A DNA stretch of 64,000 nucleotides, taken from NCBI GenBank assembly GCA_947642555.1, contig CANRSX010000003.1, forward strand, positions 1 to 64,000, read 5' to 3'. Positions within the stretch are counted from its first letter, which is position 1; the number at the start of each line of letters is the position of its first letter. Below the pieces are notes generated by a model, which ran no database searches, was not told the DNA's origin, and was given only the letters and a program-made list of their open reading frames with translations. Origin of the DNA: an uncultured Roseburia sp. GTDB taxonomy: Bacteria > Bacillota > Clostridia > Lachnospirales > Lachnospiraceae. Both the position numbers and the translations under genes were made by a program. Below, piece after piece: positions 15,390 through 51,378 of the stretch.

Positions 15390-15430
15390 TATATCATAAC
15401 AAAGCCTTGCAAGCCCTGGCAGTAAAAATA

Positions 15431-16013: not shown

Positions 16014-16047
16014 AATGCACCCCCTTTCTTCGTAACTGGTAAATAGA

Positions 16048-16137
16048 ATATACATTAAAAAAACTCCATTGTCAATATTTTTTGAAACAAAGTATTGACA
16101 AACACGCCAAAGGAATATATAATAACTCCATAGTCAA
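16048..16137. promoter_or_regulatory. Divergent lysogeny promoters with operator repeats
   Basis: Rightward promoter: TTGACA (16095-16100), 17 bp, TATAAT (16118-16123), both perfect. Leftward promoter: TTGACA (complement of 16070-16075), 17 bp, TATATT. TTGTCAATA (16069-16077) and TATTGACAA (16093-16101) form a 9-bp inverted repeat covering both -35 boxes, and ACTCCATtGTCAA / ACTCCATaGTCAA are direct repeats near 16064 and 16126. This is the arrangement of a CI/Cro switch. Confidence 0.75.
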
Positions 16138-21138: not shown

Positions 21139-21449
21139 GCATTGACAGGGACACAGCAAGGCGTATTAAGCGCATGAGTACGAAAGAGTTAGACGGGTAC
21201 TTAAGCAGAGTGACAGACAGAAGTTACGATAACGGATACGAAGAAGGCTTAGTAAACGGCGTAGCGCTGGCGGGACAGGCTTTAGACGCGGTATTAGCAC
21301 AGCACGTTATAGCCGGGGGAATGACGGAAGACCGGGCAGACGAAATTAAGAAGGCGGTAGGCGTACATATTGCGGAAGCGCCGGAAAGAGCGCGGCAGCA
21401 GATGAAGAAGGAAGCGGCAGCAGTCCGGGAAAGGAGTGAGGGCGAATGA
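21123..21449 (+). CDS. Hypothetical phage protein (108 residues)
   Basis: ATG 21123 lies 11 bp after AAGGAAA and overlaps the Rep stop. Helical, starts MGKTLGIDRDTARRIKRM; contains an AAAV run with a GGCAGCAGTCC copy. Function unknown. Overlaps the next gene by four bases. Confidence 0.5.
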   Translation: MGKTLGIDRDTARRIKRMSTKELDGYLSRVTDRSYDNGYEEGLVNGVALAGQALDAVLAQHVIAGGMTEDRADEIKKAVGVHIAEAPERARQQMKKEAAAVRERSEGE

Positions 21450-21634
21450 ATAGGACTAACATAGTATGCGGCGTGAAGGCTTGTAAATATTGCAGCATTA
21501 GCGGGTGCAGGAAAAAAGTTGTAATGCTGGATGATAAAGGGAACTGCTTAAGCAAAGAGATTATAACCGGGAAGGACGCGGCAGACGGGGCAGCCCAGGA
21601 CGCGGCGGAAGGGGTGTTAATGTATGGGGCTTAA
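21446..21634 (+). CDS. Cysteine-rich small protein (DUF1540-like)
   Basis: 62 residues with VCGVKACKYCSISGCRKK near the N-terminus: four cysteines likely to bind one metal, reminiscent of DUF1540. The adjacent nuclease carries a similar Cys cluster at its C-terminus. Coupled by overlaps on both sides. Confidence 0.55.
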   Translation: MNRTNIVCGVKACKYCSISGCRKKVVMLDDKGNCLSKEIITGKDAADGAAQDAAEGVLMYGA

Positions 21635-22133
21635 GGAATCAGAAGACCAGGCACAGGCGGCTATATTTAGCTGGGCGCGCTGGCAGCAGTCCAAATACCC
21701 GGCGCTTAAGTCCATGTATCACGCGGCGAACGAAGGAAAGCGGAGCCGGGCAGCGGGGGCAAACTTGAAGCGCCAGGGCATGAAGCCGGGCGTTAGTGAT
21801 ATTTGCTTACCATATGCAGCCGGGGGCTACAATAACCTTTATATCGAATTAAAGGTAGGAAATAACAAAGCTTCGGACGCACAGTTAGCCTTTATCGACA
21901 CGATCAACGAAATAGGCGGGAAAGCCTTAGTAGTGTATGAAGCGGACAACGCTATAGAAGTGATTACGGCTTACCTGGAAGAAAGAATAGACGGCATAGG
22001 GATAGTAAGCGATACATACCCGGCAGACAAAGCGAAGATTACAGAAAGGGTAAATAAGAAGCGTTTTATAGGCTTTTGCGGGACGGATTGTAGAACTTGT
22101 GATAATACGGGCTGCCTGGGAAAGAAGGCTTAA
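21624..22133 (+). CDS. VRR-NUC domain nuclease
   Basis: 169 residues. PD-(D/E)XK-type VRR-NUC signatures: SEDQAQAAIFSWAR, GMKPGVSDICLPYA (catalytic Asp) and LYIELKVGNNKASDAQLAFI (E-x-K). It could cut branched or recombining phage DNA. A C-terminal extension of about 25 residues ends in a cluster CGTDCRTCDNTGC that resembles the preceding small protein and is unusual for this family. Confidence 0.82.
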   Translation: MGLKESEDQAQAAIFSWARWQQSKYPALKSMYHAANEGKRSRAAGANLKRQGMKPGVSDICLPYAAGGYNNLYIELKVGNNKASDAQLAFIDTINEIGGKALVVYEADNAIEVITAYLEERIDGIGIVSDTYPADKAKITERVNKKRFIGFCGTDCRTCDNTGCLGKKA

Positions 22134-22134
22134 A

Positions 22135-22434
22135 ATGAGATTCTACGACGACTTCTACAGGTATGCAAAGCAAATGCGGCTATATGTCAATGAGTGGACG
22201 CGAAAGGAAATAGGGCGCGATACCTGGAAGGAACTTTTAAAGGAGTTCGTAGGGCAGCTTACAATAGACAGGGCGCGCGGCAGCAGTCTTAATAGCATAT
22301 GGGAAGAATTAGTAGGCATATTCCCGTATCTATTCAGCATAGAGACAGCAAACGAAGCAGACCAGCTTTTAGAGTTCTTCCGGGTATATAGAGAAGCCAG
22401 GAAGGAAAGGAAGCAGAACAGGCACGAAAGATAA
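22135..22434 (+). CDS. Hypothetical phage protein (99 residues)
   Basis: ATG 22135 follows the nuclease stop directly. Helical, starting MRFYDDFYRYAKQMRLYVNE with hydrophobic centre IFPYLFSIETANEADQLLEFF. No domain recognised. Confidence 0.5.
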   Translation: MRFYDDFYRYAKQMRLYVNEWTRKEIGRDTWKELLKEFVGQLTIDRARGSSLNSIWEELVGIFPYLFSIETANEADQLLEFFRVYREARKERKQNRHER

Positions 22435-22550
22435 AACCCTTTAAGGGACTGGCAAAGCAAGGAAATCTATCACGAATAGTAACCAGGAAACAGGAACACG
22501 CGCGGCAGAGTATATAACGACTGCTGCCGCAGAAAGGAAGGTTTAGGGAA

Positions 22551-22907
22551 GTGAAAGAGAGGATAAAAAGAGCGATCGTAAAAGCTGGGGAAAAATTTAT
22601 AACTTTTATAGTGTGGCTTGCAAAGGAATTATTTACAGTTGATCGGATAGAGGAACCAAGAAAAATACACTATGTTAAGTGTGAATCAACATTCTTTGAA
22701 GATGTGATAAACAATCGTAAGCCGTTTGAGGTTAGGAAGAATGATAGAGACTACAGGGCGGGCGACGATATGATATTAAAAGAATGGGATAAGGACTTAC
22801 AGGAATATACAGGAGTAGAAGACAGGGTAACTATTATTTATATGCTGGAAAACTACCCAGGAATAGAACCGGGTTACTGTGTTTTAGGGATAGAAAGATA
22901 CTATTAG
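22551..22907 (+). CDS. DUF3850 (ASCH/PUA-like) protein
   Basis: 118 residues from GTG 22551. After a hydrophobic helix, the core HYVKCESTFFEDVINNRKPFEVRKNDRDYRAGD... is the ASCH-like DUF3850 fold with the conserved FEVRKNDRD stretch, ending in GYCVLGIE. ASCH domains are suspected RNA-binding modules; the phage role is unknown. The N-terminal 35-residue amphipathic extension is unusual. Confidence 0.75.
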   Translation: MKERIKRAIVKAGEKFITFIVWLAKELFTVDRIEEPRKIHYVKCESTFFEDVINNRKPFEVRKNDRDYRAGDDMILKEWDKDLQEYTGVEDRVTIIYMLENYPGIEPGYCVLGIERYY

Positions 22908-22927
22908 GGAAAGGACGGTAGGAAGAA

Positions 22928-23704
22928 ATGAGGACGGCAGCAGTAGTAAATTTAAAAGGCGGAGTAGCGAAAAGCACGACAGCTATTAACATGGCGTTGA
23001 TCTTGACAACGGTACATAAAAAGCGGGTATTACTGGTTGACAATGATATACAGGCAAACGTAAGCAAGTTCTTTAGCGTCCACAGCTACGACTATAAAAG
23101 CATGGAAGACGTATTAAGGGACGAAGAAGCAATAGCGGAAGACGTGATAAGAAGCAGCGGGCGCTATGGTTTAGATATTATCCCGGCTAATATGAATATG
23201 GACGCGGCAGCAGTTGACCTTATGTTAGACCAGGAAGCCAGCCAGTTAACAAGGCTTCGGGAAGTACTTAACCAGGTGGAAGACCGTTACGACTATTGCT
23301 TTATCGACTGCCCGCCTGGGGTGGGAATAAACGTACTTAACGCACTGGCGGCGGCAAATGATGTAATTATACCGATCAAGGCAGATAAGAACGCCTTAGA
23401 CGGTATGGAAGAACTGGCAGAGGTTATAGAGGAAATCAGACCATATAACCCCGGCTTAAGCCTGGTAAAGTGCCTTGTAACTATGTTTACGAATGACATA
23501 GACGTAGTAAAAGGGGAAGAAGCTTTACAGAAAAGCGAATACAGCACATTTAATACTCATATCAGATTCAGTAAACGGGTAAATAGCTGGACGTATGAGA
23601 AGGGAAAGAGCCTGGTAGAAGTCACGCCCAGGAGCGCGGCGACAAAGGACTATAAGAACCTGGTATTAGAGTATATAAGGTTGGCAGAGGGCGCGGAAAG
23701 ATGA
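22928..23704 (+). CDS. ParA/Soj family ATPase
   Basis: 258 residues. Deviant Walker A KGGVAKST (residues 10-17, with the signature lysine K10), Walker A' LLVDNDIQANVS, Walker B FIDCPPG. This is the ParA/MinD superfamily that partitions plasmids and some phage prophages. A ParB-like protein is encoded 1.4 kb downstream. Its stop overlaps the next ATG by four bases. Confidence 0.9.
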   Translation: MRTAAVVNLKGGVAKSTTAINMALILTTVHKKRVLLVDNDIQANVSKFFSVHSYDYKSMEDVLRDEEAIAEDVIRSSGRYGLDIIPANMNMDAAAVDLMLDQEASQLTRLREVLNQVEDRYDYCFIDCPPGVGINVLNALAAANDVIIPIKADKNALDGMEELAEVIEEIRPYNPGLSLVKCLVTMFTNDIDVVKGEEALQKSEYSTFNTHIRFSKRVNSWTYEKGKSLVEVTPRSAATKDYKNLVLEYIRLAEGAER

Positions 23705-24687
23705 AAATAGGGCTTGTTAATGTAGATAGTCACAACTTCCCGAACCTGTGTTTAATGAAGTTGAGCAGTTATCATAAAAAGCGCGGTGATCTTGTGGAAT
23801 TTTGGGACAAGGATAAAAGTTACGATCGCGTATATGTTTCTAAGATATTTACAGAAAGCATATTACCGATCGTAGAAAATGCTACGGAAGTAATAATAGG
23901 CGGAAGCGGTGTAGACCTGGTTAATGAACTGCCGGAAGAAATCGAACACGAAACGCCGGACTATTCTTTATTTCCGCAATATGATTTTGCTTTAGGAATG
24001 TTAACAAGAGGTTGTCCGCGTGTAAATCATGGTTTTTGCATAACCCCACAAAAAGACGGTTGCATATCAAGAAAAGTAGCAGATTTAAAAGAATTTTGGA
24101 CGGGGCAAAAGAAAATTATTTTATTAGATCAGAACCTTTTAGCGTGTAAGGATAGGGAAACGCTGTTAGATCAGTTGATAGGCAGCAGCGCGGAAGTGGA
24201 ATTTAACGGCGGCTTAGACGTTAGGTATATGAATGAAAAAGTAATAGAAAAGGTAAGGCGAATAAAGATAAAAGATCATCATTTTGCATGGGACGACCCG
24301 AAGGAAGATTTACAGCCGTATTTTAAAAGGCTGGTGGAAGCAAAAATTAAAAGCCCGGATAGAATCGGCGTTTATGTTTTAACTAATTTTTGGTCTACGA
24401 TCGAAGAAGACTTATATAGGGTGTACGAACTACGGAAGCTGGGACTTATGCCTTTTATAATGATCTACGATAAACAAAAATTTGTAGACAGCCGGGGAAA
24501 GTGGATAAAAGGCGTAGAAGAAAGATTTACCAAAGAAGAATTAAGGCATTTTAAAACAGTACAGCATATGCAGCGTTGGTGTAATAACAGAAAACTAATT
24601 ACCATATCGCCGGACTTTGAAGGATACGAACCGTATAAGAAATGGAAGCAGCAGGGAAAACCAGTACCACAAAGAAAGGGGGCGTAA
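23701..24687 (+). CDS. Phage-type radical SAM protein with atypical cysteine motif
   Basis: 328 residues. The region MLTRGCPRVNHGFCITPQKDGC occupies the usual place of the radical SAM CX3CX2C motif but spaces cysteines as C105-X7-C113-X7-C121. Downstream FNGGLDVRYMN, HFAWDDP and GVYVLTNFW fit a TIM-barrel radical SAM core seen in gut phages. Substrate unknown; the lost middle cysteine raises the question of whether a standard 4Fe-4S cluster forms. Coupled to parA and to the following zinc-ribbon-like gene. Confidence 0.7.
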   Translation: MKIGLVNVDSHNFPNLCLMKLSSYHKKRGDLVEFWDKDKSYDRVYVSKIFTESILPIVENATEVIIGGSGVDLVNELPEEIEHETPDYSLFPQYDFALGMLTRGCPRVNHGFCITPQKDGCISRKVADLKEFWTGQKKIILLDQNLLACKDRETLLDQLIGSSAEVEFNGGLDVRYMNEKVIEKVRRIKIKDHHFAWDDPKEDLQPYFKRLVEAKIKSPDRIGVYVLTNFWSTIEEDLYRVYELRKLGLMPFIMIYDKQKFVDSRGKWIKGVEERFTKEELRHFKTVQHMQRWCNNRKLITISPDFEGYEPYKKWKQQGKPVPQRKGA

Positions 24688-24690
24688 GAA

Positions 24691-25080
24691 GTGGCAGTAT
24701 TTAGAGAAACGCGGACAGAAGTATATTGCGATAATTGCGGGGAACTGCTGGCAGCCTGGAAAGGCGTAGCGGGGGTAAGCAAAGGATGGGCGAAATACTT
24801 TGTAAGGCAGGAAGGCGCGACGACAGGAAAAAGAATAACGTGTAAGAAGTGCGGGATAGAAGCGCGTATAGAAAAATGCGGCTTGATTAAGAAGTGCGGA
24901 AGCCCGGGAAGGGATAGCGACGGCTGCTTAGGCTTCGGAAAGGAATTTGACGACGAACCTATAGAGAAATGCAAGAACTGTATAGCGTGTACGGCGTTTG
25001 ATTGGGAAGAAGAAGCACACAGGCTAAGTATAGAAGGAAGGCACGATAGAAGAATGAAGGGAGTTATAAAGAATGGGTAA
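24691..25080 (+). CDS. Cysteine-rich zinc-ribbon-like phage protein
   Basis: 129 residues from GTG 24691 behind AAAGGGGGCG. Two CxxC pairs at the N-terminus (CDNC and CKKC) suggest a zinc ribbon; more cysteines follow in KKCGSPGRDSDGC and EKCKNCIAC. Overlaps the parB-like start by eight bases. Function unknown. Confidence 0.6.
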   Translation: MAVFRETRTEVYCDNCGELLAAWKGVAGVSKGWAKYFVRQEGATTGKRITCKKCGIEARIEKCGLIKKCGSPGRDSDGCLGFGKEFDDEPIEKCKNCIACTAFDWEEEAHRLSIEGRHDRRMKGVIKNG

Positions 25081-26782
25081 ACTAGGTTTAGGCGATCGGC
25101 TGAATAGTAACAGCAGACAGGGCGTTATATTTACAGATGAATACAGGAAGGTAAGGTTAGACCCGCGTACACTGATTCCCAGCGAAAGGAACAAATACAG
25201 CCAGGACGATATAGAAGAACTGGCGGACAATATGTTACTTGTAGGGCAGCTACAGGAAGTCATAGTAGGGCGGGTAGACGGGAAAGACAGAATTATAGTA
25301 GGACATAGGAGAACGGCGGCAGCAGTCCTTAACATCAATAGAGGGCATGACGGCTTTAAACTGATTGACTGTAAAGTTAGGGAAATGACGGAAGCTTTAT
25401 TTATGCTTACGTTGCATAGCGCAAATATCTTTAACAGGCGCTTAAGCGATTGGGAATTGACCGAAGGCGTAGCGGAGTTTAAAAAGTATCTGATTGCAGC
25501 CAGGGAAGCCGGGGAAGTGGAGATAACCGGGAAAATGCGCGATTACATAGCGGACGCGATCGGAGTATCTACGGGAAAAATGGCGCAAATGGAAAGCATT
25601 ACTAATAACCTGTGCGAAGAAGGGAAGGAAGCTTTTAAGAACGGGGACATAAACTTTACGAAGGCTTACGAAACGTCCAGGCTGCCGGAAGACAAACAAA
25701 AAGAAGTGATCGCTTCCGGGGAAATGCTTAGTAAAGAAGTTAAGCAAATGGTAGACCAGGAAAGGGAGAAGAAAGAGCCTACAGCGGCAGCAGTCAAGAA
25801 GTTTTACGAAGCACACGCGAAAAAGTACGACGGGGACAGAAGCAAGCTTAAGGAACTGCTTATAGAGCATTTAGGAAAGTGCAAGGCTGGCGGGGATAGT
25901 GGCGGGGTAAACTTTGATTGTAGCTTACGCGGGGTAAAGCTGGGGAGTGCAACGGAAATAACCTGGACGCGCTTTGTACAGTTGGTTAATGATCTGTACC
26001 CGGTTACGGAAGCAGAGCCGGAAGAACAGATAGAAGGGCAGCAGGACTTAGACGAATACCCGGAAGTGACAGGCGGCGTAAGCATAAAGCGGGATACAGC
26101 ACACTTTAAAATAGACGGGGTATTAAACCTGGACTATACGCCTATGGGACTTCCGTATAGCTGCTATATTACGGCTATTCTTCATTCGGGAATATTTAGC
26201 CAGGACTTCATAGAAAACTATAAGAGTAGCAGGGGAATAAATGCGCTGCTTAACATCATTGAAAACTACAGGAAAAAGCTTTGTTATGGAGAAGACGGAA
26301 AATACGCGCCGGGTAAGAAAAGCTTTGATTTTAAGCATGAGGGGAAAGAATACGCCGCGTATTTTGATAACCGGGGCTTTAATGTAGACAGCAAGGACAA
26401 CCAGTACAAGGAATATTTACGGGACTATGACTTAATGGAATTGCTGGAAGCTATGTTAGAAGCCGGGTATTTTGGAGTAGTGGAAACCCTTAAAAATACG
26501 ATCAAAAGAACGGTTAAAAAGGTGTCAGAACATGACACCGGGCGGCAGCAGGACAAGACAGAAAATACAGGCGCTATAAATGAATCGGAAACAGGGCAGC
26601 AGGAAGAAGACCAGGCGGCAGCAGTCGAAGAAGAATTAGACATAGCGGAAGCTACAGGTATTCTTACAGCCGATCTATTCCAGCTTAGGGAATTTATCAA
26701 CGAAGACGATTTTTACACTTTGCAGGAAATTGTTATTAACTGTGAACTGGCGGCGCGACATTTACACGAAGTAAAGGAGTAA
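25073..26782 (+). CDS. ParB-like nuclease/partition domain protein
   Basis: 569 residues. The N-terminal ParB/sulfiredoxin domain (about 25-110) has GQLQEVIVGRV and IIVGHRRTAAAV, the ParB GHRR-type CTP/phosphate motif, followed by a helix-turn-helix-like segment (about 150-190, IGVSTGKMAQMESITNNL). The large C-terminal half is unrecognised and contains a Glu/Gln-rich linker (about 485-530). With ParA it may form a partition pair or act in DNA modification/replication. No classical parS was found by eye. Confidence 0.75.
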   Translation: MGKLGLGDRLNSNSRQGVIFTDEYRKVRLDPRTLIPSERNKYSQDDIEELADNMLLVGQLQEVIVGRVDGKDRIIVGHRRTAAAVLNINRGHDGFKLIDCKVREMTEALFMLTLHSANIFNRRLSDWELTEGVAEFKKYLIAAREAGEVEITGKMRDYIADAIGVSTGKMAQMESITNNLCEEGKEAFKNGDINFTKAYETSRLPEDKQKEVIASGEMLSKEVKQMVDQEREKKEPTAAAVKKFYEAHAKKYDGDRSKLKELLIEHLGKCKAGGDSGGVNFDCSLRGVKLGSATEITWTRFVQLVNDLYPVTEAEPEEQIEGQQDLDEYPEVTGGVSIKRDTAHFKIDGVLNLDYTPMGLPYSCYITAILHSGIFSQDFIENYKSSRGINALLNIIENYRKKLCYGEDGKYAPGKKSFDFKHEGKEYAAYFDNRGFNVDSKDNQYKEYLRDYDLMELLEAMLEAGYFGVVETLKNTIKRTVKKVSEHDTGRQQDKTENTGAINESETGQQEEDQAAAVEEELDIAEATGILTADLFQLREFINEDDFYTLQEIVINCELAARHLHEVKE

Positions 26783-40666: not shown

Positions 40667-41376
40667 TGCGGGCAACATTTCACATTTTTTATAATGGTGA
40701 ATCCTGTAAAGATGTAGGGTTGAGCGTGACAAGCCGCCCTACTATCCCGATACCAGAGCGAGAGCATGAGACAATAAAGGTAGAAGGACGGGACGGAGAA
40801 TTACACAGGGACAAAGGGACGTATAAGGATATAGAAATAACAATAGGCTTTAACTTTGTGTCAAAAACCCCGGATATATGGGCGCAGGACTTAAGGAAGG
40901 TTAAAAAGTGGCTTTACAGCGGGAAAGATGAAAGACTGATACTAAGCGACGACCCGGAGTATTTCTATAAAGTGAAACAGGCAGTAATGAGCGACAGCGA
41001 AAGGAAAGCAAGGCGCGTAGGGAAATTTGAAATAACATTCACTTGTGATGCTTATATGTATCGGATAGACGGGCAGGAAGAAAAGGAGATAGCAGGGTAT
41101 TTATATAACCCGTATATGAGGACGCAGCCCCTATATAAGATATACGGAAACGGGGAAATTGTGTTAGAGGTAAACGGAAACCGGGTAACGGCGGAAGTAA
41201 ACGGGCAGCTAAACATAGATACAAAATTAGAAATATGCTATAACGCGGCAAATGAAATAAGCAACGCTTCTCTTTCCGGGAAATACGAAGGGCTTTACCT
41301 GGAAGAAGGCGAAAATACATTTAATTTTACAGAGGGCTTTAGGGTTGTTTTAGTCCCTAACTGGCGGGAATTATGA
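40666..41376 (+). CDS. Distal tail protein (Dit family)
   Basis: 236 residues: short Dit with an N-terminal beta domain (GRDGELHRDKGTYKDIEITIGF is the family signature around residue 42) and a galectin-like C-terminal half. It forms the hub joining tail tube and tail tip. Start overlaps the tape measure stop, end overlaps the next gene. Confidence 0.88.
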   Translation: MRATFHIFYNGESCKDVGLSVTSRPTIPIPEREHETIKVEGRDGELHRDKGTYKDIEITIGFNFVSKTPDIWAQDLRKVKKWLYSGKDERLILSDDPEYFYKVKQAVMSDSERKARRVGKFEITFTCDAYMYRIDGQEEKEIAGYLYNPYMRTQPLYKIYGNGEIVLEVNGNRVTAEVNGQLNIDTKLEICYNAANEISNASLSGKYEGLYLEEGENTFNFTEGFRVVLVPNWREL

Positions 41377-43487
41377 TAGAGGTATATAAGAATACTAACC
41401 GAAACTACCAAAGAAACGGAGATATAACGCTTACGCCCTTAAGCTGTATCTTTGAAATGGGGTTAGACGGCATAAGCCAGGTAGAACTAAGCCACGAATA
41501 CGACGACCTGGGGCGCTGGGAATACCTGGTAAATGACAATGTAATAGCCGCGCCGACACCCTACAGCGACAAACAGTTATTCAGAATATATAACAGGGTG
41601 AAGGGCGACGACGAAGTAACCGTATACGCAAGACATATTTACTATGACAATCTGACAAATGTACTTATAGATACACGACCAACGCTTAAGACCGGGCAGG
41701 AAGCCTTAAACATTATATTCAGCGGGACGAAGTTTAAAGGGCATAGCGATATAACGACGGTAAATACTGCTTATTATGTGCGTAAGAATATAGTAGCAGC
41801 GATCGCCGGGGACGACGAAAACAGCTTTATTAACCGCTGGGGCGGGGAAATGCTGTACGACAACTACGATATATACGTTATGCGGCAGTTAGGAGAGGAT
41901 AAAGGCGTAAGGGCAGAGTTCGGACACAACCTTACAGGGATTGAAGAAAACATAAGCACAGAAGAAACGATAACGCGAATTATCCCAGTAGCATATAACG
42001 GGTATACGCTGGAAGGTAGCAAGCCCTGGGTAGACAGTCCAAAGATCGGGGACTATGCGGAGATTAAAGCGGGCGTTATAGAGTTTTCAGAAATCAAGTT
42101 ACAAGAGGATTGCAGCCAGGACGAAAAAGGATATGCAAACCTTACGGAATTAAGGAAGGCACTTGTAAAAGCGTGTAATGACGAATTTAAAAAGGGAATC
42201 GACGAACCGACAGTAAATTATACCGTAAACATGGTAGAACTTGCTGAAACGGTAGAATATAGGGACTATAAGCAGTTAGAAAATGTGCGGATAGGGGATA
42301 CGATCACTTGTAAGCACAGAAAAATAAAGGTAGAAGCAAAGGCGCGTTGTATCCGCCTTAAGTGGAACTGTTTAACGAAAGAAAACGAAGAAGTAGAATT
42401 AGGGAACTTCTTACAAACTTACTTTGACAAGACAAGCAGCAGCATACAACAGGCGACGGCTTCCATAGAAGGGGCAAATAGCCAGGCTTTAGCGGCGAAA
42501 GAGATAGCCCAGGGAGCCGCAAAGGAAGCGACGGAAGGGGCGGTAGCAGCCCAGGAAGCGGCAAGGGCAGCCCAGGCAGCAGCCGGGACAGCAACCAGCC
42601 GGGCGGCGGAAGCTGGAAGATCAGCAGAAGAAGCGGCAAACCAGGTAGCATTAGCAGCAGCCCAGGCAAAGGAAGCAACCAGCAAGGCGGAGTTATCCGG
42701 GAAAGCGGCGGAAGCGGCGGCAGAAGAAAAGAAGGCAGCCGGGGAGTATGCAGCCCAGGCAGCGGCAAAGGCGAAAGAAGCTTTAGCGGCTAGTGAAGTG
42801 GCAACGACCCAGGCAACGGCAGCCGGGCAGCATGAAGCGGCAGCAGTTAGCCAGGCGAAGGCGGCAGTAATAGCAAAAGAAGCAGCAGAGAAGGCGAAGA
42901 CGGCAGCAGCCGCCGCCCAGGGCGCAGCGGAAACAGCGCAAGGGGAAGCAGAGAAGGCGAAGACGGCAGCAGTCGCCGCCCAGGAAAGGGCAGAAAGCGC
43001 CCAGGGCGTAGCGGAGACAGCAAAGGTAGCAGCGGAAGCGGCAGCCGGGACAGCGACAGAACAAGCCGGAATAGTGACTACAGCAAAAGAAGCAGCAGAG
43101 AAGGCGAAGACGGCAGCAGTCGCCGCCCAGGGCGCAGCAGAAGCGGCGCAAAGGGAAGCAGAGAAGGCGAAGACGGCAGCAGTCACAGCCCAGGAAAGCA
43201 CAGAAGCAGCAAAGACGAAAGCCCAGGAAGCAGCCCAGGCAGCGGCGGGAGATAAAACAGCCGCCCAGGAAGCGGCAGGGAAAGCCAGGGAAGCAGCCGG
43301 GACAGCAACGACCCAGGCAACGGCAGCAGCAGCGGCAGCAAAGACGGCGGCAGAAGGGGAAACAGGCGCGAAACACTATTATGAAATGACAAAAGAACTA
43401 TACGAAGACGCAAGCGTACAGGTGGGGCAGAGTAACGAAGCCTGGTTAGACTTGTCATATATAAATAATTGCTATTTATGCGAGTAA
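41373..43487 (+). CDS. Tail-associated protein (endopeptidase-tail/Tal N-domain) with Ala-rich coiled-coil stalk
   Basis: 704 residues. Residues 1-350 match the gp44/Tal-like tail hub (ISQVELSHEYDDLGRWEYLV, VYARHIYYDNLTN, RIIPVAYNGY). From about 355 to 675 the chain is a long alanine/Lys/Glu coiled-coil stalk built of repeats such as AAEKAKTAAVAAQ. The last 20 residues, NEAWLDLSYINNCYLCE, resemble the end of the next protein. No enzyme domain is obvious beyond the hub. Confidence 0.8.
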   Translation: MIEVYKNTNRNYQRNGDITLTPLSCIFEMGLDGISQVELSHEYDDLGRWEYLVNDNVIAAPTPYSDKQLFRIYNRVKGDDEVTVYARHIYYDNLTNVLIDTRPTLKTGQEALNIIFSGTKFKGHSDITTVNTAYYVRKNIVAAIAGDDENSFINRWGGEMLYDNYDIYVMRQLGEDKGVRAEFGHNLTGIEENISTEETITRIIPVAYNGYTLEGSKPWVDSPKIGDYAEIKAGVIEFSEIKLQEDCSQDEKGYANLTELRKALVKACNDEFKKGIDEPTVNYTVNMVELAETVEYRDYKQLENVRIGDTITCKHRKIKVEAKARCIRLKWNCLTKENEEVELGNFLQTYFDKTSSSIQQATASIEGANSQALAAKEIAQGAAKEATEGAVAAQEAARAAQAAAGTATSRAAEAGRSAEEAANQVALAAAQAKEATSKAELSGKAAEAAAEEKKAAGEYAAQAAAKAKEALAASEVATTQATAAGQHEAAAVSQAKAAVIAKEAAEKAKTAAAAAQGAAETAQGEAEKAKTAAVAAQERAESAQGVAETAKVAAEAAAGTATEQAGIVTTAKEAAEKAKTAAVAAQGAAEAAQREAEKAKTAAVTAQESTEAAKTKAQEAAQAAAGDKTAAQEAAGKAREAAGTATTQATAAAAAAKTAAEGETGAKHYYEMTKELYEDASVQVGQSNEAWLDLSYINNCYLCE
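42871..43200 (+). repeat. Long imperfect direct repeats in the coiled-coil stalk
   Basis: AGCAAAAGAAGCAGCAGAGA and about 40 further bases recur from 42872 and from 43082 with very few differences, 210 bp apart; shorter copies of the AAGGCGAAGACGGCAGCAG core lie at 42953 and 43163. This permits stalk length change by recombination. Confidence 0.7.
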
Positions 43488-43499
43488 GGACGGTGCAAA

Positions 43500-44201
43500 G
43501 TGGTAGTAGGTAGGCTTATATTTGACTTCGCCCGTCATAGCGTAGAAAAGACTATAAGGGTTAAACAATTCGACAGCGAAACGCGCAACCTGTTAATAGT
43601 GCTTCTGAATGACGGCGAACCTTACGAAATGCCGGAAGGGGCAATAGTAAGAATAGAGTGTAGGAAGTCGGACGGGGAAGAAATTTTAAACGACTGTACA
43701 TATGTTGAAAACCTTATTACGGCAGAGATTACGGAACAAATGACAGCCGCCCCAGGGTATGCGGAATGTGCTATTAGTGTATATGAAAAGGACAGCTATA
43801 TAGCTTCCTGGACGTTTAACATTAAAGTAGATACAGCGGTCATAGTGGGCGACAAAATAGAAAGCACAATAGAATATAAAGCGATTATCAACGCTTTGCA
43901 GGAAGTGGAGAAATCGAAAGACACAATAGAAGAAGCGACGGTTTTAGCTGCTACAGCTATGAGGACGGCAAACGATACCATAGGCATAGCGAACCAGGTA
44001 AAGGAAGAAGCGACGGCAGCGGCAGCAGCCAGCCAGGAAGCCGTAAAGGTGGCTACACAGGCAGCACAACAGGCGGAAAACTACAAGGAACTGATAGAAG
44101 ACATTTATAACAATATTGATAAGCTTAACGACTTCGCGGAAGAAGCATGGTTAGATAAATCATACTTAGGAAGCGGATACTTAAGCGAAATGAAAGAGTA
44201 G
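43500..44201 (+). CDS. BppU-like baseplate upper protein
   Basis: 233 residues from GTG 43500. The N-terminal 120 residues (DFARHSVEKTIRVKQFDSETRN, PEGAIVRIECRKSDGEEI) match the BppU N-domain found in Firmicutes siphoviruses, which anchors receptor-binding proteins. A helical stalk follows. The end EEAWLDKSYLGSGYLSEMKE shares a motif with the preceding protein. Confidence 0.8.
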   Translation: MVVGRLIFDFARHSVEKTIRVKQFDSETRNLLIVLLNDGEPYEMPEGAIVRIECRKSDGEEILNDCTYVENLITAEITEQMTAAPGYAECAISVYEKDSYIASWTFNIKVDTAVIVGDKIESTIEYKAIINALQEVEKSKDTIEEATVLAATAMRTANDTIGIANQVKEEATAAAAASQEAVKVATQAAQQAENYKELIEDIYNNIDKLNDFAEEAWLDKSYLGSGYLSEMKE

Positions 44202-44217
44202 AAAGGAAGGGCTAAAT

Positions 44218-44682
44218 ATGCGGAATATGCCTAAAGTGATCGGGACGGGAAAGGACATTTACAACCTGTTAGGAATGGTACAGGCTGGGAAACTGGCAGC
44301 AGGGGAGTTAAGGGAAGCAATACAGGGGATAGAGGAAGAAAAGTACATCTTTTCCCCCGTAATTGATATTTCAGAAGATAAAAGGTACGTGACGACTAAT
44401 TACCTGGCGGAAGCAAAAAAAGGCGCTAAAGTGCTGTGCGAAGGGAAGGTATATACGATCAAGAGCGTAGAACACATTACAGAAGAAGCGGCAGCAGCCG
44501 GAGAAGGAGAAACGGAAACAGAGCAGCGGGAAGACAAGAAGACGGTTATAGGAGTAAACGCCGATCTGAAAGAAGCAGCAGAAAAAGTAGGGATAGAAAA
44601 CCCGGTAAGCGTTTTAGAAAGAATCGGGATAACCCAGGAAGAATTAGACAGCATTAAAGGAGTGTTAGCGAAGTATGAGTAG
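44218..44682 (+). CDS. Hypothetical tail-tip protein (154 residues)
   Basis: Starts MRNMPKVIGTGKDIYNLLGM. Contains a Glu-rich linker (about 95-118) and ends in a helical domain NPVSVLERIGITQEELDSIK. It precedes and overlaps the DGR variable protein by eight bases, so it may be its chaperone or an adaptor to the baseplate; this is inferred from position. Confidence 0.55.
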   Translation: MRNMPKVIGTGKDIYNLLGMVQAGKLAAGELREAIQGIEEEKYIFSPVIDISEDKRYVTTNYLAEAKKGAKVLCEGKVYTIKSVEHITEEAAAAGEGETETEQREDKKTVIGVNADLKEAAEKVGIENPVSVLERIGITQEELDSIKGVLAKYE

Positions 44683-45772
44683 ATTTTTAAGTAATGATTT
44701 TATCAACAAAGACCCACGCGCGAAGCTGACGGTAGCGAAGCTTGCAAATATTGGCGATCTTGTAGCGCCTACGGCGGAGTATTTGACGGCTACAGGGCTT
44801 ACGGAACTTACGGTAACTGCCGGGTGCGTGATTACAATAGGCAGTACAGGCGTTTTTAAGACGGACGCGACAATACTTAGTACGGGCAACCTGGACGCGG
44901 GAAGCGTGTTTACAGTCGGAAAAGATTATTATGTATATATTTGTGATCCAGGAAGTGAAGACCTGGACGAAGTATACAAGATCAGCCTTAACAGCACATA
45001 CCCGGACGGCTACGACGCGGAAACCAGCCGGAAAATAGGCGGCTTCCATTACGGACGGGTAAGACAGGTAAGCAGTAAGCTTATACCGATCAATGCAGCC
45101 GGAGTAGAAAAGGGCAGCGGCTGGGAATCTAACGTAGTTTCCGGCATTGTACCGCGTTCAGTGTGGACGACTAAACACCGTCCAAAATGCAGCCCGGAGG
45201 GTATGGTATACGCTGGGGGTGGATTGTGGGTAGATATATACATAGCTTCCAGCAACGGCGTAGGCGGCGTAAAGTCTGCTTATGGAACTACGCCGCTTAC
45301 AGGCACAGAAGGACATAACAGCTATGATTTTATTGACCTGGGCTTAAAATCGGGTAAGCGGTTACTGTCTTATTCTGAATGGCAGCAGGCGGCTTATGGA
45401 AGCCCGCAGGGGGCAGACGGGAACAATACAAACGCCTGGGCTGCCACGTCCAATACTGCCAGGACGACGACGGGGAAAGTAGTTAATGCTGTATCCGCGA
45501 TCGGTTGCGTAGACTGTGTAGGGAATGTGTGGGAATGGCTGGACGAATTAAGCTACAGGTATGACGGTACACAGTCCTGGGGCTGGAAGGACGTATTAGG
45601 GGCAGGAAACGGACAGGCTTATACAGAAGGGACTTACGGGCTTGTTTGCCTTATCGCGGGCGGCAGCTGGAACTACGGCGTTTACGCTGGCTGCCGCGCG
45701 GTGCACTGTCTCAACTACCCCTGGGGCGTCGGCGCGGGTCTCGGGGCGCGGTTCGGCTGTGACTCTCTGTGA
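44675..45772 (+). CDS. DGR variable protein: FGE/C-type-lectin-fold receptor-binding protein
   Basis: 365 residues. The N-terminal 150 residues are beta-rich with no family named. From about 215 the formylglycine-generating-enzyme/C-type lectin fold is clear: GHNSYDFIDLGL, RLLSYSEWQQAAYGSPQG, CVDCVGNVWEWLDEL. The last 40 residues (326-363) are the variable repeat, LIAGGSWNYGVYAGCRAV through ARFGCD. DGR target proteins place mutable residues on this fold's ligand face. It is probably the tail receptor-binding protein, so variation would alter host range. The protein ends two codons after VR. Confidence 0.92.
   Translation: MSRFLSNDFINKDPRAKLTVAKLANIGDLVAPTAEYLTATGLTELTVTAGCVITIGSTGVFKTDATILSTGNLDAGSVFTVGKDYYVYICDPGSEDLDEVYKISLNSTYPDGYDAETSRKIGGFHYGRVRQVSSKLIPINAAGVEKGSGWESNVVSGIVPRSVWTTKHRPKCSPEGMVYAGGGLWVDIYIASSNGVGGVKSAYGTTPLTGTEGHNSYDFIDLGLKSGKRLLSYSEWQQAAYGSPQGADGNNTNAWAATSNTARTTTGKVVNAVSAIGCVDCVGNVWEWLDELSYRYDGTQSWGWKDVLGAGNGQAYTEGTYGLVCLIAGGSWNYGVYAGCRAVHCLNYPWGVGAGLGARFGCDSL
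45648..45764 (+). repeat. DGR variable repeat (VR)
   Basis: 117 bp matching TR at 46269-46385 with offset 621. Differences are at 45666, 45674, 45704, 45710, 45711, 45725, 45726, 45731, 45732, 45737 and 45740; at every one TR has adenine. The 3' part (45741-45764, TCGGGGCGCGG onward) is identical and almost free of adenine, as for an initiation-of-mutagenic-homing sequence. Confidence 0.97.
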
Positions 45773-45781
45773 TCTGTCTTA

Positions 45782-45801
45782 GTGCGGGCGGAAGCCCGCA
45801 C
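45782..45801 (+). other. DGR target hairpin downstream of VR
   Basis: GTGCGGGC (45782-45789), loop GGAA, GCCCGCAC (45794-45801): a perfect 8-bp stem with 4-nt loop, 17 bp after VR. In the Bordetella phage DGR a hairpin of the same stem and loop size close behind VR promotes retrohoming. No T tract follows, so it is not a terminator. Confidence 0.8.
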
Positions 45802-45819
45802 ACGCGAAAAATTTATAAA

Positions 45820-45838
45820 ATTTCCAGGATATAGGAAA
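45820..45838 (-). promoter_or_regulatory. 19-bp operator-like element, DGR copy
   Basis: Exact reverse complement of 15431-15449 in the lysogeny region. It lies 14 bp before the presumed -35 of the avd promoter (TATAAT at 45876), nearly the same geometry as at 15431. Confidence 0.65.
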
Positions 45839-45852
45839 CAATGAGGGAAAGC

Positions 45853-45881
45853 GGTACAAATAAAAAAGCTTATGATATAAT
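45853..45881 (+). promoter_or_regulatory. Promoter for avd-TR-RT
   Basis: Extended -10 TGATATAAT with TATAAT at 45876-45881, and a poor -35 GGTACA at 45853-45858 (17-bp spacer). It would give the DGR accessory genes and template RNA their own transcript. Confidence 0.55.
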
Positions 45882-45906
45882 CGCCAAACAGGAAGAAGGC
45901 GATTAT

Positions 45907-46245
45907 ATGAAAAGCAATTTGGAAATACAGGAAAAGCTATACGATTTTATAAAGTATATTTACCCGGTGCTAAGGCAGTATCCCAAAAGTGAAAAGTTTT
46001 CACTTCAAAAGGATACGAAAAATTGTATCATGGATATTTTGCGGTACATCATTAGAGCCGGGAAAAGCACTACGAAGAAAAAACTTTTATACGACGCGGA
46101 CGTAGAATTAGTTGTATTGCGGTATTATATCAGAATTGCATACGACCAGCAGTACATAAACGGGCATACATACGGTGTAGCCGCAAAGAAGATAACGGAA
46201 ATAGGAAGAATGTTAGGCGGCTTCATTAAATCGGTACAAAGTTAA
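45907..46245 (+). CDS. avd: DGR accessory variability determinant (Avd-like)
   Basis: 112 residues from ATG 45907, behind GGAAGAAGG; an ATG at 45841 would lie upstream of the promoter -10. All-helical and basic (IQEKLYDFIKYIYPVLRQYPKSEKFSLQ, YYIRIAYDQQYINGHTYG, ITEIGRMLGGFIKS), the four-helix bundle of Avd, which pentamerises and binds RT and template RNA. Its location between VP and TR is canonical. Confidence 0.9.
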   Translation: MKSNLEIQEKLYDFIKYIYPVLRQYPKSEKFSLQKDTKNCIMDILRYIIRAGKSTTKKKLLYDADVELVVLRYYIRIAYDQQYINGHTYGVAAKKITEIGRMLGGFIKSVQS

Positions 46246-46542
46246 TCATATGGGCTATATGTTGCTTCGCCTTATCGCGGGCGGCAACTGGAACAACGGC
46301 GTTTACGCTGGCTGCCGCGCGGTGAACTGTAACAACTACCCCTGGAACGTCAACGCGAGTATCGGGGCGCGGTTCGGCTGTGACTTATGGACTTTCAGAC
46401 TTAGCAAGCTACGGCTTACTAGCAAGGACTATTTTCATATAGTCAGAACGTATAGCCCGTCTGGGGACTTACCCGGCAAATATAAAAAAGGACACTTCCA
46501 CTTAGTAGCGCTGGCGAAGGGTGGAAGCGGGAACGGCGGAAG
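46246..46542 (+). ncRNA. DGR template RNA region
   Basis: Non-coding stretch between avd and RT that contains TR and about 157 nt of spacer. The spacer can fold: CTTCCAC (46495-46501) pairs with GTGGAAG (46521-46527), and AAGC/GCTT lies near 46410. In studied DGRs the RNA from avd's end through the spacer templates mutagenic cDNA synthesis. Confidence 0.8.
46269..46385 (+). repeat. DGR template repeat (TR)
   Basis: 117 bp with 22 adenines, of which 11 have changed in VR; none of the other 95 bases differ. The implied peptide has AAC codons at eight places where VR is free to vary (for example GGNWNNG and VNCNNYPWNVNAS), the usual design of a TR: AAC can mutate to 15 residues but not to stop. 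Confidence 0.97.
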
Positions 46543-47601
46543 ATGAAAAGAAGCAGTATAGGAATACAGGATATAGCAACTTTTGAAAATGCGGAAGACG
46601 CATACAGGAAGGCGCGAAGGTGCAAAAGATACAGGGAAGAAGTCTTAAGGTTTACGGAAAATAAAGAAGCGGAATTGTGCGACATTGTACAGGAACTTTT
46701 GACGGGGACATACAGGCAGGGGGAAGCCCGGCGCTTTGTAGTCTATGAGCCGAAAAAGCGGGATATATACGCGCTGCCTTTCCGGGACAGGGTAGTACAG
46801 CACATGATTAACACAAAGATAGAACCAATAATAGAAAAGCGGTTTTATTTTCACAGTTACGCTTGCAGAAAAAATAAAGGTATGCACAAGGCGGCAGCTT
46901 ACGCCCAGGAGTGCATAAGAAACCGATCTTTTGAAGGCTGCCAGGTGTACGCGCTGAAAGCAGACATACATAAGTATTTTAACAGCGTAGACCATGAGAT
47001 ACTAAAGCAGCTTCTTACAAGGATATTTAAGGACAGGCAGTTAATAGCGCTGCTTTTCTATATCATAGACAGCTACGGCGAAGACGGTAAGGGAATACCA
47101 GTAGGAAACCTTCTTAGTCAGCTTTTTGCAAACCTGGTATTAAATGAGTTAGACACATTCGTAAAAAACGAATTAAAGGTAGAGGACTACCCGCGATATA
47201 TGGACGATTTTGTAGTTATCCATAATGACCGGGAATACTTAAAAGAAGTTTTACAAAAGATAGACGCTTTTATAGGGGAAAGGCTGAAACTTTCCTTAAA
47301 TCCGAAGACCACTATTATAAATACAAAGAACGGCTTAGACTTTTGCGGTTATCGTATTTATAAGGACTATCGGAAGATACGGAAGCGCAGCCCTAAGCAT
47401 ATGAAAGCCGCAATAAAGGCTTATAGGCATGGGAAAATAACAAAAGATAAATTGCTATTGTCTTACAAAAGCTGGGAAGGACACGCGGGACACGCCGATA
47501 CTTTCCGATTGCGGCAGAAGATGAAAGGACAAATAGAAGCGGCGATAAGAGAAAAGGAGTTAATAGAAAATGGCAAAAGGTATAATAAGCCGGATAATTA
47601 A
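46543..47601 (+). CDS. DGR reverse transcriptase
   Basis: 352 residues. RT motifs: YALKADIHKYFNSVDH (catalytic D141), GIPVGNLLSQLFANL (185-199), in which group II intron QGxxxSP is replaced by the DGR-type GxxxSQ, and the active site YMDDFVV (D221, D222). No maturase or endonuclease domain follows, as usual for DGR RTs. Together with Avd it makes adenine-mutagenised cDNA of TR. Confidence 0.96.
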   Translation: MKRSSIGIQDIATFENAEDAYRKARRCKRYREEVLRFTENKEAELCDIVQELLTGTYRQGEARRFVVYEPKKRDIYALPFRDRVVQHMINTKIEPIIEKRFYFHSYACRKNKGMHKAAAYAQECIRNRSFEGCQVYALKADIHKYFNSVDHEILKQLLTRIFKDRQLIALLFYIIDSYGEDGKGIPVGNLLSQLFANLVLNELDTFVKNELKVEDYPRYMDDFVVIHNDREYLKEVLQKIDAFIGERLKLSLNPKTTIINTKNGLDFCGYRIYKDYRKIRKRSPKHMKAAIKAYRHGKITKDKLLLSYKSWEGHAGHADTFRLRQKMKGQIEAAIREKELIENGKRYNKPDN

Positions 47602-47845
47602 CAAGATCAGACACAGGAAGGAAGAAGGAACACACAGCGAAGCAGCCGTAGAAGTAGCGCGGTATGATCTTGACGTAGTGGAAGTACAAAATAGCATTAT
47701 TTCAGACCTGGCAGAAGTTAATAGGATGCTGCTGGAAGAACTGGAAAACTACAGGGCTATAGAAGACGAAGACAGGCATTTACTAATGATGATCGAAGAC
47801 GTAGAAGAAGGAAAGGAAGATTTAAAACGGCTGTTAGAGCCGTAG
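47570..47845 (+). CDS. Hypothetical phage protein (91 residues)
   Basis: Start overlaps the RT gene by 32 bp, behind AAAAGGAG. Helical, acidic C-terminus (EVNRMLLEELENYRAIEDED, MIEDVEEGKEDL). No family recognised; it begins the lysis side. Confidence 0.55.
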   Translation: MAKGIISRIINKIRHRKEEGTHSEAAVEVARYDLDVVEVQNSIISDLAEVNRMLLEELENYRAIEDEDRHLLMMIEDVEEGKEDLKRLLEP

Positions 47846-47863
47846 GGAAGGAGTTAGTAAAGC

Positions 47864-48103
47864 TTGAGTAGTGAATTTTGGATAGGCTTACTTATTCAGT
47901 TGATTGTGTACGGGGTGTCGATCGGTGTAATTTATGGGACGGTAAAGACCAGGCTTAATTATATCGAAGATAAATTAGACAAGCACAACAACGTAGTAGA
48001 ACGGGTGTATAAGCTGGAAACAGACCAGGAAGTATTACAGGAACGGCAGAAGGTAGCGAACCATAGAATAGACGACCTGGAAGAAGCGGCAGCGAAGGCA
48101 TGA
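47864..48103 (+). CDS. XhlA/holin-associated membrane protein (79 residues)
   Basis: TTG start behind GGAAGGAG. One membrane helix (WIGLLIQLIVYGVSIGVIY) and a coiled coil (LNYIEDKLDKHNNVVERVYKLE). This is like XhlA/Bhl-type accessory holins. Overlaps the next gene by four bases. Confidence 0.65.
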   Translation: MSSEFWIGLLIQLIVYGVSIGVIYGTVKTRLNYIEDKLDKHNNVVERVYKLETDQEVLQERQKVANHRIDDLEEAAAKA

Positions 48104-48456
48104 GACGGAAAAAGACAGAATTTAAGAAGAAAGTAGTAATACGGACTGGCTTAATATTTGTGATCGCCTGTTTAGTCGCCCTGTTTTTTTCCTGGCATGA
48201 AAAGCCTACAGAAGTATTTACTTACATTATCCCGGCTTCCGGGGGTATCTTCGGGGCGGCTGTAATTTGGTATCTGAAAGCGGTACAGCTTGAAAACGGT
48301 ATCAAAATACAATTAGGAATGATAAGAAAGCTTATCGACCTGGGAGAAGAAAACCAGGCGGAAGAAATCAAGGAAAGAACCATACAAAAGATGAAGGATA
48401 GGACAGAAGCACTTATAGACGAAGCGTTAGAAGCGACAGACATACAGAACTTTTAG
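48100..48456 (+). CDS. Two-helix membrane protein, possible holin component
   Basis: 118 residues: two membrane helices (TGLIFVIACLVALFF and SGGIFGAAVIWYLKA) and a charged C-terminal helix. Position in the lysis cassette suggests a holin-related role. Confidence 0.55.
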   Translation: MRRKKTEFKKKVVIRTGLIFVIACLVALFFSWHEKPTEVFTYIIPASGGIFGAAVIWYLKAVQLENGIKIQLGMIRKLIDLGEENQAEEIKERTIQKMKDRTEALIDEALEATDIQNF

Positions 48457-48468
48457 AGGTGCTTAAGT

Positions 48469-48885
48469 ATGGAAATTTTACAGAAACTTATTGAAAACTG
48501 GCTTATTTTTGTGATCGCGTTTATCCTGGTATTGCTTACGGTATATGCGATCTTACGTTTTTTGAAGCTTACGCCGAAGCAGCAGCTAAACAAGGTAAGG
48601 ACTGCTTTACTTTACATGGTGACGGAAGCGGAAAAGGAGTTAAAAAGCAAGACAGGGCGCGTAAAGCGTTCTATGGTGTGGGAATGGCTGGTTGAGCGCT
48701 TCCCGATCATAACTTTGTTTATCACAGAAGAAAAGTACGACGAACTGTTAGACCAGGCTTTAGCAGAGTTTAAGAAAATGCTGGAAAATAACGAAAGCCT
48801 GTACGACTATGTACACAATACGCTTACAGTCTCGGAAACAGACACAGCAGAAGACATTATAAGGAAAAGTGTAGAAGGGGCGTAA
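48469..48885 (+). CDS. Phage holin, LLH-like
   Basis: 138 residues with one N-terminal helix (WLIFVIAFILVLLTVYAIL) followed by VRTALLYMVTEAEKELKSKTGRVKRS and VWEWLVERFP, the pattern of the LLH holin family. Directly before the endolysin gene. Confidence 0.75.
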   Translation: MEILQKLIENWLIFVIAFILVLLTVYAILRFLKLTPKQQLNKVRTALLYMVTEAEKELKSKTGRVKRSMVWEWLVERFPIITLFITEEKYDELLDQALAEFKKMLENNESLYDYVHNTLTVSETDTAEDIIRKSVEGA

Positions 48886-50502: not shown

Positions 50503-50541
50503 CTTAATAAAAAACCCTTTATTTGCGGGCTTCGGAGTTAT

Positions 50542-50551
50542 GCAAGCGATA
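50542..50551 (+). repeat. attR core candidate
   Basis: GCAAGCGATA, followed by G. Restoring this end behind rpsI would give the in-frame stop TAG and then the terminator at 50578, consistent with a displaced native gene end. Confidence 0.6.
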
Positions 50552-50577
50552 GGAAATTGCATATTTTATTGCATGAT

Positions 50578-50611
50578 AAACCCACAAACATCGTGTTTGT
50601 GGGTTTTTTTT
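50578..50611 (+). terminator. Displaced native rpsI terminator
   Basis: AAACCCACAAACA (50578-50590) pairs with TGTTTGTGGGTTT (50594-50606) around TCG, with a long T run to 50611. It lies just outside attR where the original rpsI terminator is expected. Confidence 0.85.
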
Positions 50612-50681
50612 AAGTGATAACTGTGGTAAACTTATATTGTCAACTATATATGCTACAGAATGAAATGAGGAGGGAAGTATA

Positions 50682-50942
50682 ATGCCAGAGATATCGTTGT
50701 TTTACGGAATCAGGGTTACAATGTATTATGATGACCATAATCCTCCACATTTCCATGCGGAATATAATGGAAATAAGGCGATTATTGAAATTGATGCAGC
50801 AAGGTGTATAAAAGGTGCATTGCCATCCCGGCAACTCAAATTGATTTTAGCATGGTGTGTTTTACATCAGGATGAACTGATGCAGAATTGGGAATTATCA
50901 AAGGATGGAAAACCGATGAACCGAATCAACCCGTTAGTTTAA
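50682..50942 (+). CDS. DUF4160 domain protein
   Basis: 86 residues: MPEISLFYGIRVTMYYDDHNPPHFHAEYNG is the DUF4160 signature (DHNPPHFHAEY), and RQLKLILAWCVLHQDELMQNWE its C-terminal part. Usually paired with a DUF2442 protein, as here; pairs of this kind are often listed as toxin-antitoxin-like but have no proven activity. Local base composition is lower in GC than the rest of the flank. Confidence 0.88.
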   Translation: MPEISLFYGIRVTMYYDDHNPPHFHAEYNGNKAIIEIDAARCIKGALPSRQLKLILAWCVLHQDELMQNWELSKDGKPMNRINPLV

Positions 50943-50958
50943 AAGTGAGGTGAACATT

Positions 50959-51234
50959 ATGTTTCCGAAGGTTGTACAGGTAATACCAATGGAAAATTAT
51001 TCGGTATATGTATACTTTGAAGATGGTAAAATCGTATGTTATGATATGCTTCAAATGATTGAGAAAGAGGCATTTCGTTCATTGAAAGATATCACTGTTT
51101 TTAAAGAGGCCTGCACAGTGATGAATGATACATTGGCATGGGATATCGGGGGAAACCGAGATAATACGAAGTGTCTGGATATTGACCCGGATACACTGTA
51201 TGATTTACCGATGGAGGCAGAAAAGATAGCATGA
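50959..51234 (+). CDS. DUF2442 domain protein
   Basis: 91 residues from ATG 50959 with GTGAGGTG eight bases upstream (GTG 50950 is an alternative). VYFEDGKIVCYDMLQMIEKEAFRSLKD and AWDIGGNRDNTKCLDIDPDTLYD are typical of DUF2442/NE0471-like proteins. Same operon as the DUF4160 gene. Confidence 0.85.
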   Translation: MFPKVVQVIPMENYSVYVYFEDGKIVCYDMLQMIEKEAFRSLKDITVFKEACTVMNDTLAWDIGGNRDNTKCLDIDPDTLYDLPMEAEKIA

Positions 51235-51378
51235 TATATGGTTTGGAGACAGTATGCGCACATATGAGCGTATATGAGTAACGAACACGTAACTGACAAA
51301 CAAAGATTTCATAATGGAGGAGCTGTTATGTGTAAGAGTGGAAGACCGGCATTTGTGTAACGGGGGGTGACAGCGTCC
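51235..51378. other. Intergenic stretch with an arm-site-like relic
   Basis: ACACGTAACTGACAAA at 51285-51300 differs by one base from the prophage arm repeat. A 10-codon frame (51328-51360) behind GGAGGAGCT ends in TAA; it could be a leader or a remnant. Confidence 0.4.

Follow-up and report, generated by a model that had tools for sequence, protein, structure and literature searches.

A BPP-1-type diversity-generating retroelement in a Roseburia prophage, and a conserved dyad that may place its cassette under phage control

The first 64,000 nucleotides (nt) of contig CANRSX010000003.1 from an uncultured Roseburia sp. (assembly GCA_947642555.1), hereafter the window, carry a prophage in which an initial annotation, made from the letters alone, had recognized a complete diversity-generating retroelement (DGR) aimed at a receptor-binding-like protein. 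This locus raises two questions: whether the element is indeed complete and able to act, and when a temperate phage would turn it on. We identified all the expected parts, in an arrangement resembling that of phage BPP-1. The window thus almost certainly holds a complete BPP-1-type DGR; its sequence features were observed directly, while retrohoming and an effect on host range would follow from the DGR literature. Unless marked (-), features of the retroelement and of its proposed control region lie on the forward strand (+).

The two repeats carry the clearest evidence. Over 117 positions, the variable repeat (VR, 45648-45764) and the template repeat (TR, 46269-46385) differed at 11, every one of them a TR adenine; half of the adenines (11/22) and none of the other bases (0/95) were altered in VR. 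Were 11 differences to fall at random, the probability of all landing on the 22 adenines would be 8e-10. The repeat coordinates and the adenine-only pattern reported earlier were thus borne out for the 117-base extent, but the ungapped repeat reaches three bases further left (VR 45645-45764, TR 46266-46385). Over these 120 nt, which take in one C-to-T difference, 11 of 12 differences are at TR adenines. In the protein, the altered adenines change eight residues: six asparagines (331 to Ser, 334 to Tyr, 344 to His, 346 to Leu, and 351 and 353 both to Gly), serine 355 (to Gly) and isoleucine 356 (to Leu). The kinds of substitution listed in the initial annotation are all present, but it had counted five asparagine codons instead of six. 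When 114 bases of TR were searched against the 4.99-Mb host assembly, they matched solely VR and TR, giving no second, remote target.

VR forms the 3' end of a gene for an Mtd-like tail or receptor-binding protein of 365 amino acids (44675-45772). The protein matched Pfam mtd_2nd (E 1.2e-43) and a PHROG tail protein family (E 5.7e-78), and its residues 34-365 matched the solved Mtd structures (PDB 1yu0-1yu4 and 2iou; E 6.8e-18 to 3.5e-15). An FGE-sulfatase domain was also matched, and by sequence match VR would lie in a C-terminal C-type-lectin-like domain. Seven annotated phage records matched the target at 27-41% identity, and no nucleotide relatives of positions 43500-48500 were found among annotated phages. 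Variation of the target could change host range, as its homology to Mtd suggests.

Downstream of the target lies avd, the accessory variability determinant (45907-46245, 112 amino acids from the ATG at 45907). Its product, also related to PDB 4dwl, matched Pfam bAvd PF22296 above the curated cut-off (2.1e-33) and NCBIfam NF033474 DivGenRetAVD at 119.6 bits against a cut-off of 80 (6.3e-35). Beyond TR follows the reverse transcriptase (RT) gene (46543-47601), whose product matched PHROG 1423, Reverse transcriptase, at 1.2e-123. Its best solved relative is PDB 8ub7 (1.4e-54), an entry that also contains an Avd chain. A GxxxSQ sequence in motif 4 is the mark of DGR RTs; the translation contains both YMDD and GNLLSQ, in agreement with the motifs noted earlier, and the avd and RT reading frames are both open. 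The host genome also carries a second RVT_1 reverse transcriptase (G000 contig C1, 125398-126057), weakly similar to the DGR enzyme.

Two nucleic acid structures accompany the repeats. Seventeen nt 3' of VR is a DNA hairpin (45782-45801) with an 8-bp GC-rich stem and a GGAA loop that fits the GRNA consensus; a hairpin of that kind arose in 1 of 500 shuffles. In PMC3240598, phage DGR hairpins are described as having a 7-10-bp GC-rich stem and a GRNA loop and lying 4-34 bp from VR, and in stem, loop and distance the window hairpin falls within that description. No hairpin resembling it follows TR in the window. Among 32 relatives, eight had a post-VR hairpin with a stem of at least 7 bp and a 4-nt loop, the loop being GRNA in seven; some others, outside this count, had by eye shorter stems with GAAA or similar loops.

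The second structure is an RNA, Rfam RF02921 RT-14, matched at 46384-46529 (55.5 bits; gathering score 48.1). The match runs from the last TR bases almost to the RT start and occupies most of the spacer between them. At the gathering score, RT-14 was found in 6 of 24 relatives, with starts ranging from 1 base ahead of the TR end to 24 bases past it. A search of 397 genomes of the host family, whose strict filters make the count a lower bound, gave matches in at least 5 (4 over the cut-off), and in all five a bAvd match lay 139-178 nt upstream on the same strand. From this placement, RT-14 most likely serves one group of DGRs as the scaffold of the template RNA. The model itself has a narrow reach: bAvd was matched in 17 of the 397 genomes (12 over the cut-off), and 12 of these 17 lacked an RT-14 match. 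Together with the 6 of 24 relatives matched, this means that many DGR spacer RNAs lie beyond the reach of the model. RT-14 is not named after DGRs, and no paper linking the two was found in the literature searched.

The closest known parallel is BPP-1 (mtd-avd-TR-brt; AY029185), which shares with the window the gene order, an Mtd target with a 3' VR, Avd and RT, the post-VR hairpin and a structured RNA in the TR-RT spacer. The spacers are similar in length: in BPP-1 (our locus L282), 144 bases separate the TR end at 5562 from the brt start at 5707, and the window RT starts 158 bases past the TR end. The spacer RNA of BPP-1, however, belongs to RF03022 Phage_DGR and that of the window to RT-14. 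The two also differ in the gap between target and avd, 31 nt in BPP-1 and 135 nt in the window, where the extra stretch contains a predicted promoter and a dyad. Chromohalobacter phage YPCBV-1 (OP380511), the best annotated phage match (41% identity over 81% of the target), likewise has an Mtd/SUMF1-type target followed by Avd and RT. Unlike in the window, its avd overlaps the target end and so leaves no room for a separate promoter region. Neither RT-14 nor Phage_DGR was matched in YPCBV-1 (E 0.5) or in two other DGR loci given.

By analogy with described DGRs, the element would work as follows. A transcript of avd-TR-RT would be made, and TR with its folded spacer RNA would be copied by an Avd-RT complex that misreads adenines. 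The resulting complementary DNA would then overwrite VR in the last part of the Mtd-like gene; the stretch at their 3' ends where the repeats are identical, together with the DNA hairpin after VR, would direct it there. The predicted receptor-binding face would thereby be rewritten, and TR would remain unchanged.

We then compared the window with its relatives. Forty-three target loci, including the window, entered the TR search, and a TR was obtained at 32. At three of the remaining 11 the target ran off the end, and eight had no TR at the threshold used; five of these eight (L037, L042, L047, L049 and L052) stop within 160 bases past the target. The other three are L058, G334 (described below) and G165. 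L058 has an Mtd-like target (6001-6906), about 6 kb of sequence after it and no TR at that threshold. In G165 (L083 5151-6851), Avd, TR and RT are present and the target frame is broken inside VR. The initial annotation had named equal change at non-adenine positions among relatives as a sign against mutagenic retrohoming. What we found was one-sided: across the 32 loci, VR was altered at 399 of 801 TR adenines and at 13 of 2874 other bases (C 5/936, G 5/1189, T 3/749). These counts are descriptive, the loci being related and not independent; repeat ends were lengthened across matches and adenine mismatches only, and a 90-base core was picked by identity alone. At every locus pair listed, non-adenine differences between TRs were mirrored in each locus's own VR, a correspondence that the way of delimiting the repeats partly enforces.

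The nearest sister prophage, L007, gives a comparison of a kind that had also been proposed at the outset. Over 10.8 kb it is 98.4% identical to the window; the RT gene differs by 1.6%, the target before VR by 3.1%, TR by 4.4% and VR by 13.2%. Within VR, the two differ at 11 of 21 shared TR-adenine columns and at 1 of 94 shared non-adenine columns. Another close relative, the prophage of G334, is 91-96% identical by pieces but lacks window positions 45910-47619, that is, avd-TR-RT (L078, near 8236). No RT relative was found in the G334 genome, and the Mtd-like gene and its VR are kept. Against the window TR, this VR has 20 differences, 7 of them at non-adenines, some of which may go back to TR divergence that preceded the loss. 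The six related prophages, five with the cassette and differing VRs and one with the cassette gone, form a natural series for cassette presence, VR change and loss.

Could the window element nevertheless be a relic, complete in outline but now silent, its VR pattern a trace of past activity? The loss in G334 shows that cassettes do disappear in this phage group. Yet the Avd and RT frames are open, the VR of the sister L007 is different, and the 120-base repeat contains one non-adenine difference, against seven in the cassette-less G334 VR when compared with the window TR. We therefore regard a relic as very improbable; the variation among sister prophages suggests that the DGR was recently active. 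That the repeats are an ordinary duplication diverged by normal mutation is scarcely credible: the existence of two copies is all that speaks for it, and against it stand the restriction of all 11 differences to adenines, the one-sided pattern across 32 loci, and the Avd, RT, RNA and hairpin that flank the repeats. Some points do count against the reading as a DGR that rewrites a receptor-binding protein. The C-to-T difference lies at 45647/46268, one base left of the earlier boundary, and the pooled set contains 13 non-adenine differences. Receptor binding is assigned by homology, the target matching BPP-1 mtd (tblastn) at 27% identity.

When, then, would the cassette be expressed? The target stop is followed by 135-138 nt before avd in the window clade (36-199 nt in other relatives). 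Within this region is a dyad, TTTCC-N8-GGAAA (45821-45838), a predicted operator identical in four sister phages, and 37 nt after it a TATAAT within an extended -10 element (TGA-TATAAT, 45873-45881), the predicted avd-TR-RT promoter. The 18-mer at the dyad, TTTCCAGGATATAGGAAA, occurs exactly twice in the window; the second copy, an exact reverse complement, is at 15431-15448, in the early region of the prophage. Allowing three mismatches, where 0.04 matches were expected, gave one extra match, with three mismatches and outside the prophage. The early copy also has a TATAAT 37 nt to its right (15486-15491), facing an open reading frame (ORF) of 32 amino acids (15525-15623) whose homologs adjoin dyads, and a TATACT 37 nt to its left (15388-15393, (-)), facing the integrase gene.

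This arrangement is conserved. In each of five DGR phages (G000, the window phage, and G457, G458, G459 and G460), TTTCC-N8-GGAAA-N34-40-TATAAT occurs twice, both times with a 37-nt spacing; in G460 the two sites are on different contigs, with a third match elsewhere. The reversed control pattern gave zero matches in these five phages. Aligned, the avd-side dyad is identical in all 18 bases and its flanks vary, whereas the early copies have the same arms and a varying middle. Both dyad sites are altered in G334, from which the cassette is gone. As a conserved site the dyad is well supported, and a link between a DGR cassette and a phage control region would be new as far as the literature was searched. 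A further inverted repeat, ATAATCGCC-N12-GGCGATTAT (45877-45906), spans the -10 element and the ribosome-binding site up to the avd start, and by eye 8-9 bp of it are retained in the sisters. It could serve as a second operator, or else fold into a hairpin masking the avd start in RNA that reads through from the target gene.

A candidate binder of the dyad is encoded beside the early copy, near the gene for a CI-like repressor: a small XRE-family regulator of 66 amino acids (15189-15389; Pfam HTH_3). In IMG/VR, 65 loci contain the 61-nt dyad-plus-TATAAT pattern. An XRE homolog lies no more than 700 nt away at 17 of them (16 at E 1e-10); a pattern with permuted arms had such a neighbour at 1 of 48 loci (0 at 1e-10; Fisher 4.4e-4 and, at 1e-10, 6.5e-5; several of the loci are near copies). 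Eleven of the 17 homologs show only 45-62% identity. Among the matches listed in IMG/VR, a separate second site was seen solely on the two contigs of the window's DGR clade, many other contigs being fragments. In the converse search, starting from XRE loci, the dyad lay 44-46 nt past the matched end in eight of nine, and in none of nine for each of six permuted arms. From the conservation of the dyad and its co-occurrence with XRE genes, we infer that the cassette probably has its own promoter and is controlled by the phage XRE regulator through the dyad at 45821-45838, a site also present in the promoter region beside that regulator's gene. The CI-like repressor (15630-16055) was considered as a binder and is disfavoured because in G457 its N-terminal half is unlike that of the window while both dyads are unchanged.

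Several observations weigh against control by the XRE regulator. One of the nine XRE loci has no dyad, and seven of the nine are on contigs that the dyad search had already turned up; the dyad is present in one of the remaining two. One DGR phage contig (L038/L174) has the XRE-type dyad, with a gap of 52 nt before avd and no second listed match.

How the regulator would act is a further matter. The position of the site, which in the window clade lies beyond the -35 region, some 58 bp ahead of the expected start, suggests activation, and by eye the -35 hexamers are weak, as would better suit an activator. It is nonetheless quite conceivable that XRE binds the dyad and represses the cassette. 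Many small XRE proteins are repressors, and at five listed loci another dyad begins 30 nt further along, by eye near the -10 element.

That the dyad is no XRE operator at all is a less likely reading, though one of appreciable probability; it would then be bound by a different factor, of phage or host origin, or be a repeat retained on other grounds. Two observations favour such a site over XRE control: 48 of the 65 IMG/VR pattern loci lack an XRE homolog nearby, and the host genome contains 42 copies of the dyad taken alone but 3 of the reversed pattern. However, the two prophage copies are the only ones in the host genome with a TATAAT at 34-40 nt, and the XRE-first loci carry the dyad far more often than any of the six permuted-arm patterns. 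The changed N-terminal half of the G457 repressor beside an unchanged dyad likewise speaks against the adjacent repressor as the factor concerned.

Control by XRE can be extended into a wider scheme, which we put forward as tentative. In it, the XRE protein would act through the dyad at two divergent promoters of the immunity region, one toward the integrase gene and one toward the 32-amino-acid ORF and antisense to the CI-like repressor, as well as at the avd-TR-RT promoter, and hypermutation would be coupled to a decision related to lysogeny. The weakest part is the leftward promoter, the one predicted to point at the integrase gene. A -10-like hexamer (at least 5/6) lies 37 nt from the early dyad on the XRE side at 16 of 20 loci, many of which are close relatives; three of the 16 were picked through the XRE side and one matched on both sides. 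Hexamers of the same score on that side at 46 nt in 9 of 20 loci and at 32 nt in 7 of 20 count against such a promoter.

There are partial precedents for such a scheme. In the lambda CII regulon, one small phage protein acts at promoters for integrase and other genes. The predicted window scheme is alike in placing one small protein at integrase and other promoters; it differs in being predicted from sequence, in relying on an XRE-type protein and in that one promoter would drive a DGR. The hankyphage is, like the window, a prophage-borne DGR. According to PMC12135933, silencing of its CI-like repressor RepC-HP raised phage gene expression and DGR activity, and some cultures that had not been induced also showed DGR activity. 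The window differs in that the shared site points to the small XRE protein rather than to the CI-like repressor beside it, and in having a predicted site directly at the avd promoter. Judged by title, none of the top-ranked literature on DGR regulation dealt with an operator at a DGR promoter, and the literature found says little about when DGRs are switched on. The shared dyad gives a concrete and testable handle on the moment at which a temperate phage turns on targeted hypermutation; under the wider scheme, hypermutation of the tail tip would be neither constant nor run together with the late structural genes.

The surrounding prophage appears to be temperate and intact. Its structural and lysis genes include those for terminase, portal, protease, major head, major tail, tape measure, Dit and endolysins; its other genes encode an integrase, the CI-like regulator, a replication protein and ParA/ParB-like proteins. 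In a tail protein gene at 41373-43487 there are internal 21-nt repeats in two arrays 210 nt apart, where alignments of sister phages break. The tyrosine integrase gene is at 13702-14763 (-) (Pfam Phage_integrase, 1.2e-18). The likely attachment core is a 17-bp repeat, present in direct orientation at 13179 and 50486 and lying near the gene for ribosomal protein L13. Homology to L007 extends as far as 51302. A degenerate version of the 17-bp repeat sits there (near 51280), so that the right end may carry a second small insert at the same attachment site. The stretch between the right repeat and the degenerate copy (50503-51302), common to L007, contains small genes at 50682-50942 and 50950-51234. 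Genes for a replication-initiation protein, ParA-like and ParB-like proteins and a radical SAM protein lie at 20347-26782, and with these the prophage may also be maintained outside the chromosome. The CI-like repressor has a very similar C-terminal half and an unlike N-terminal, DNA-binding half when the window is compared with sister phages (L087, L094, L096, L097 and L109), as if immunity types were swapped by module.

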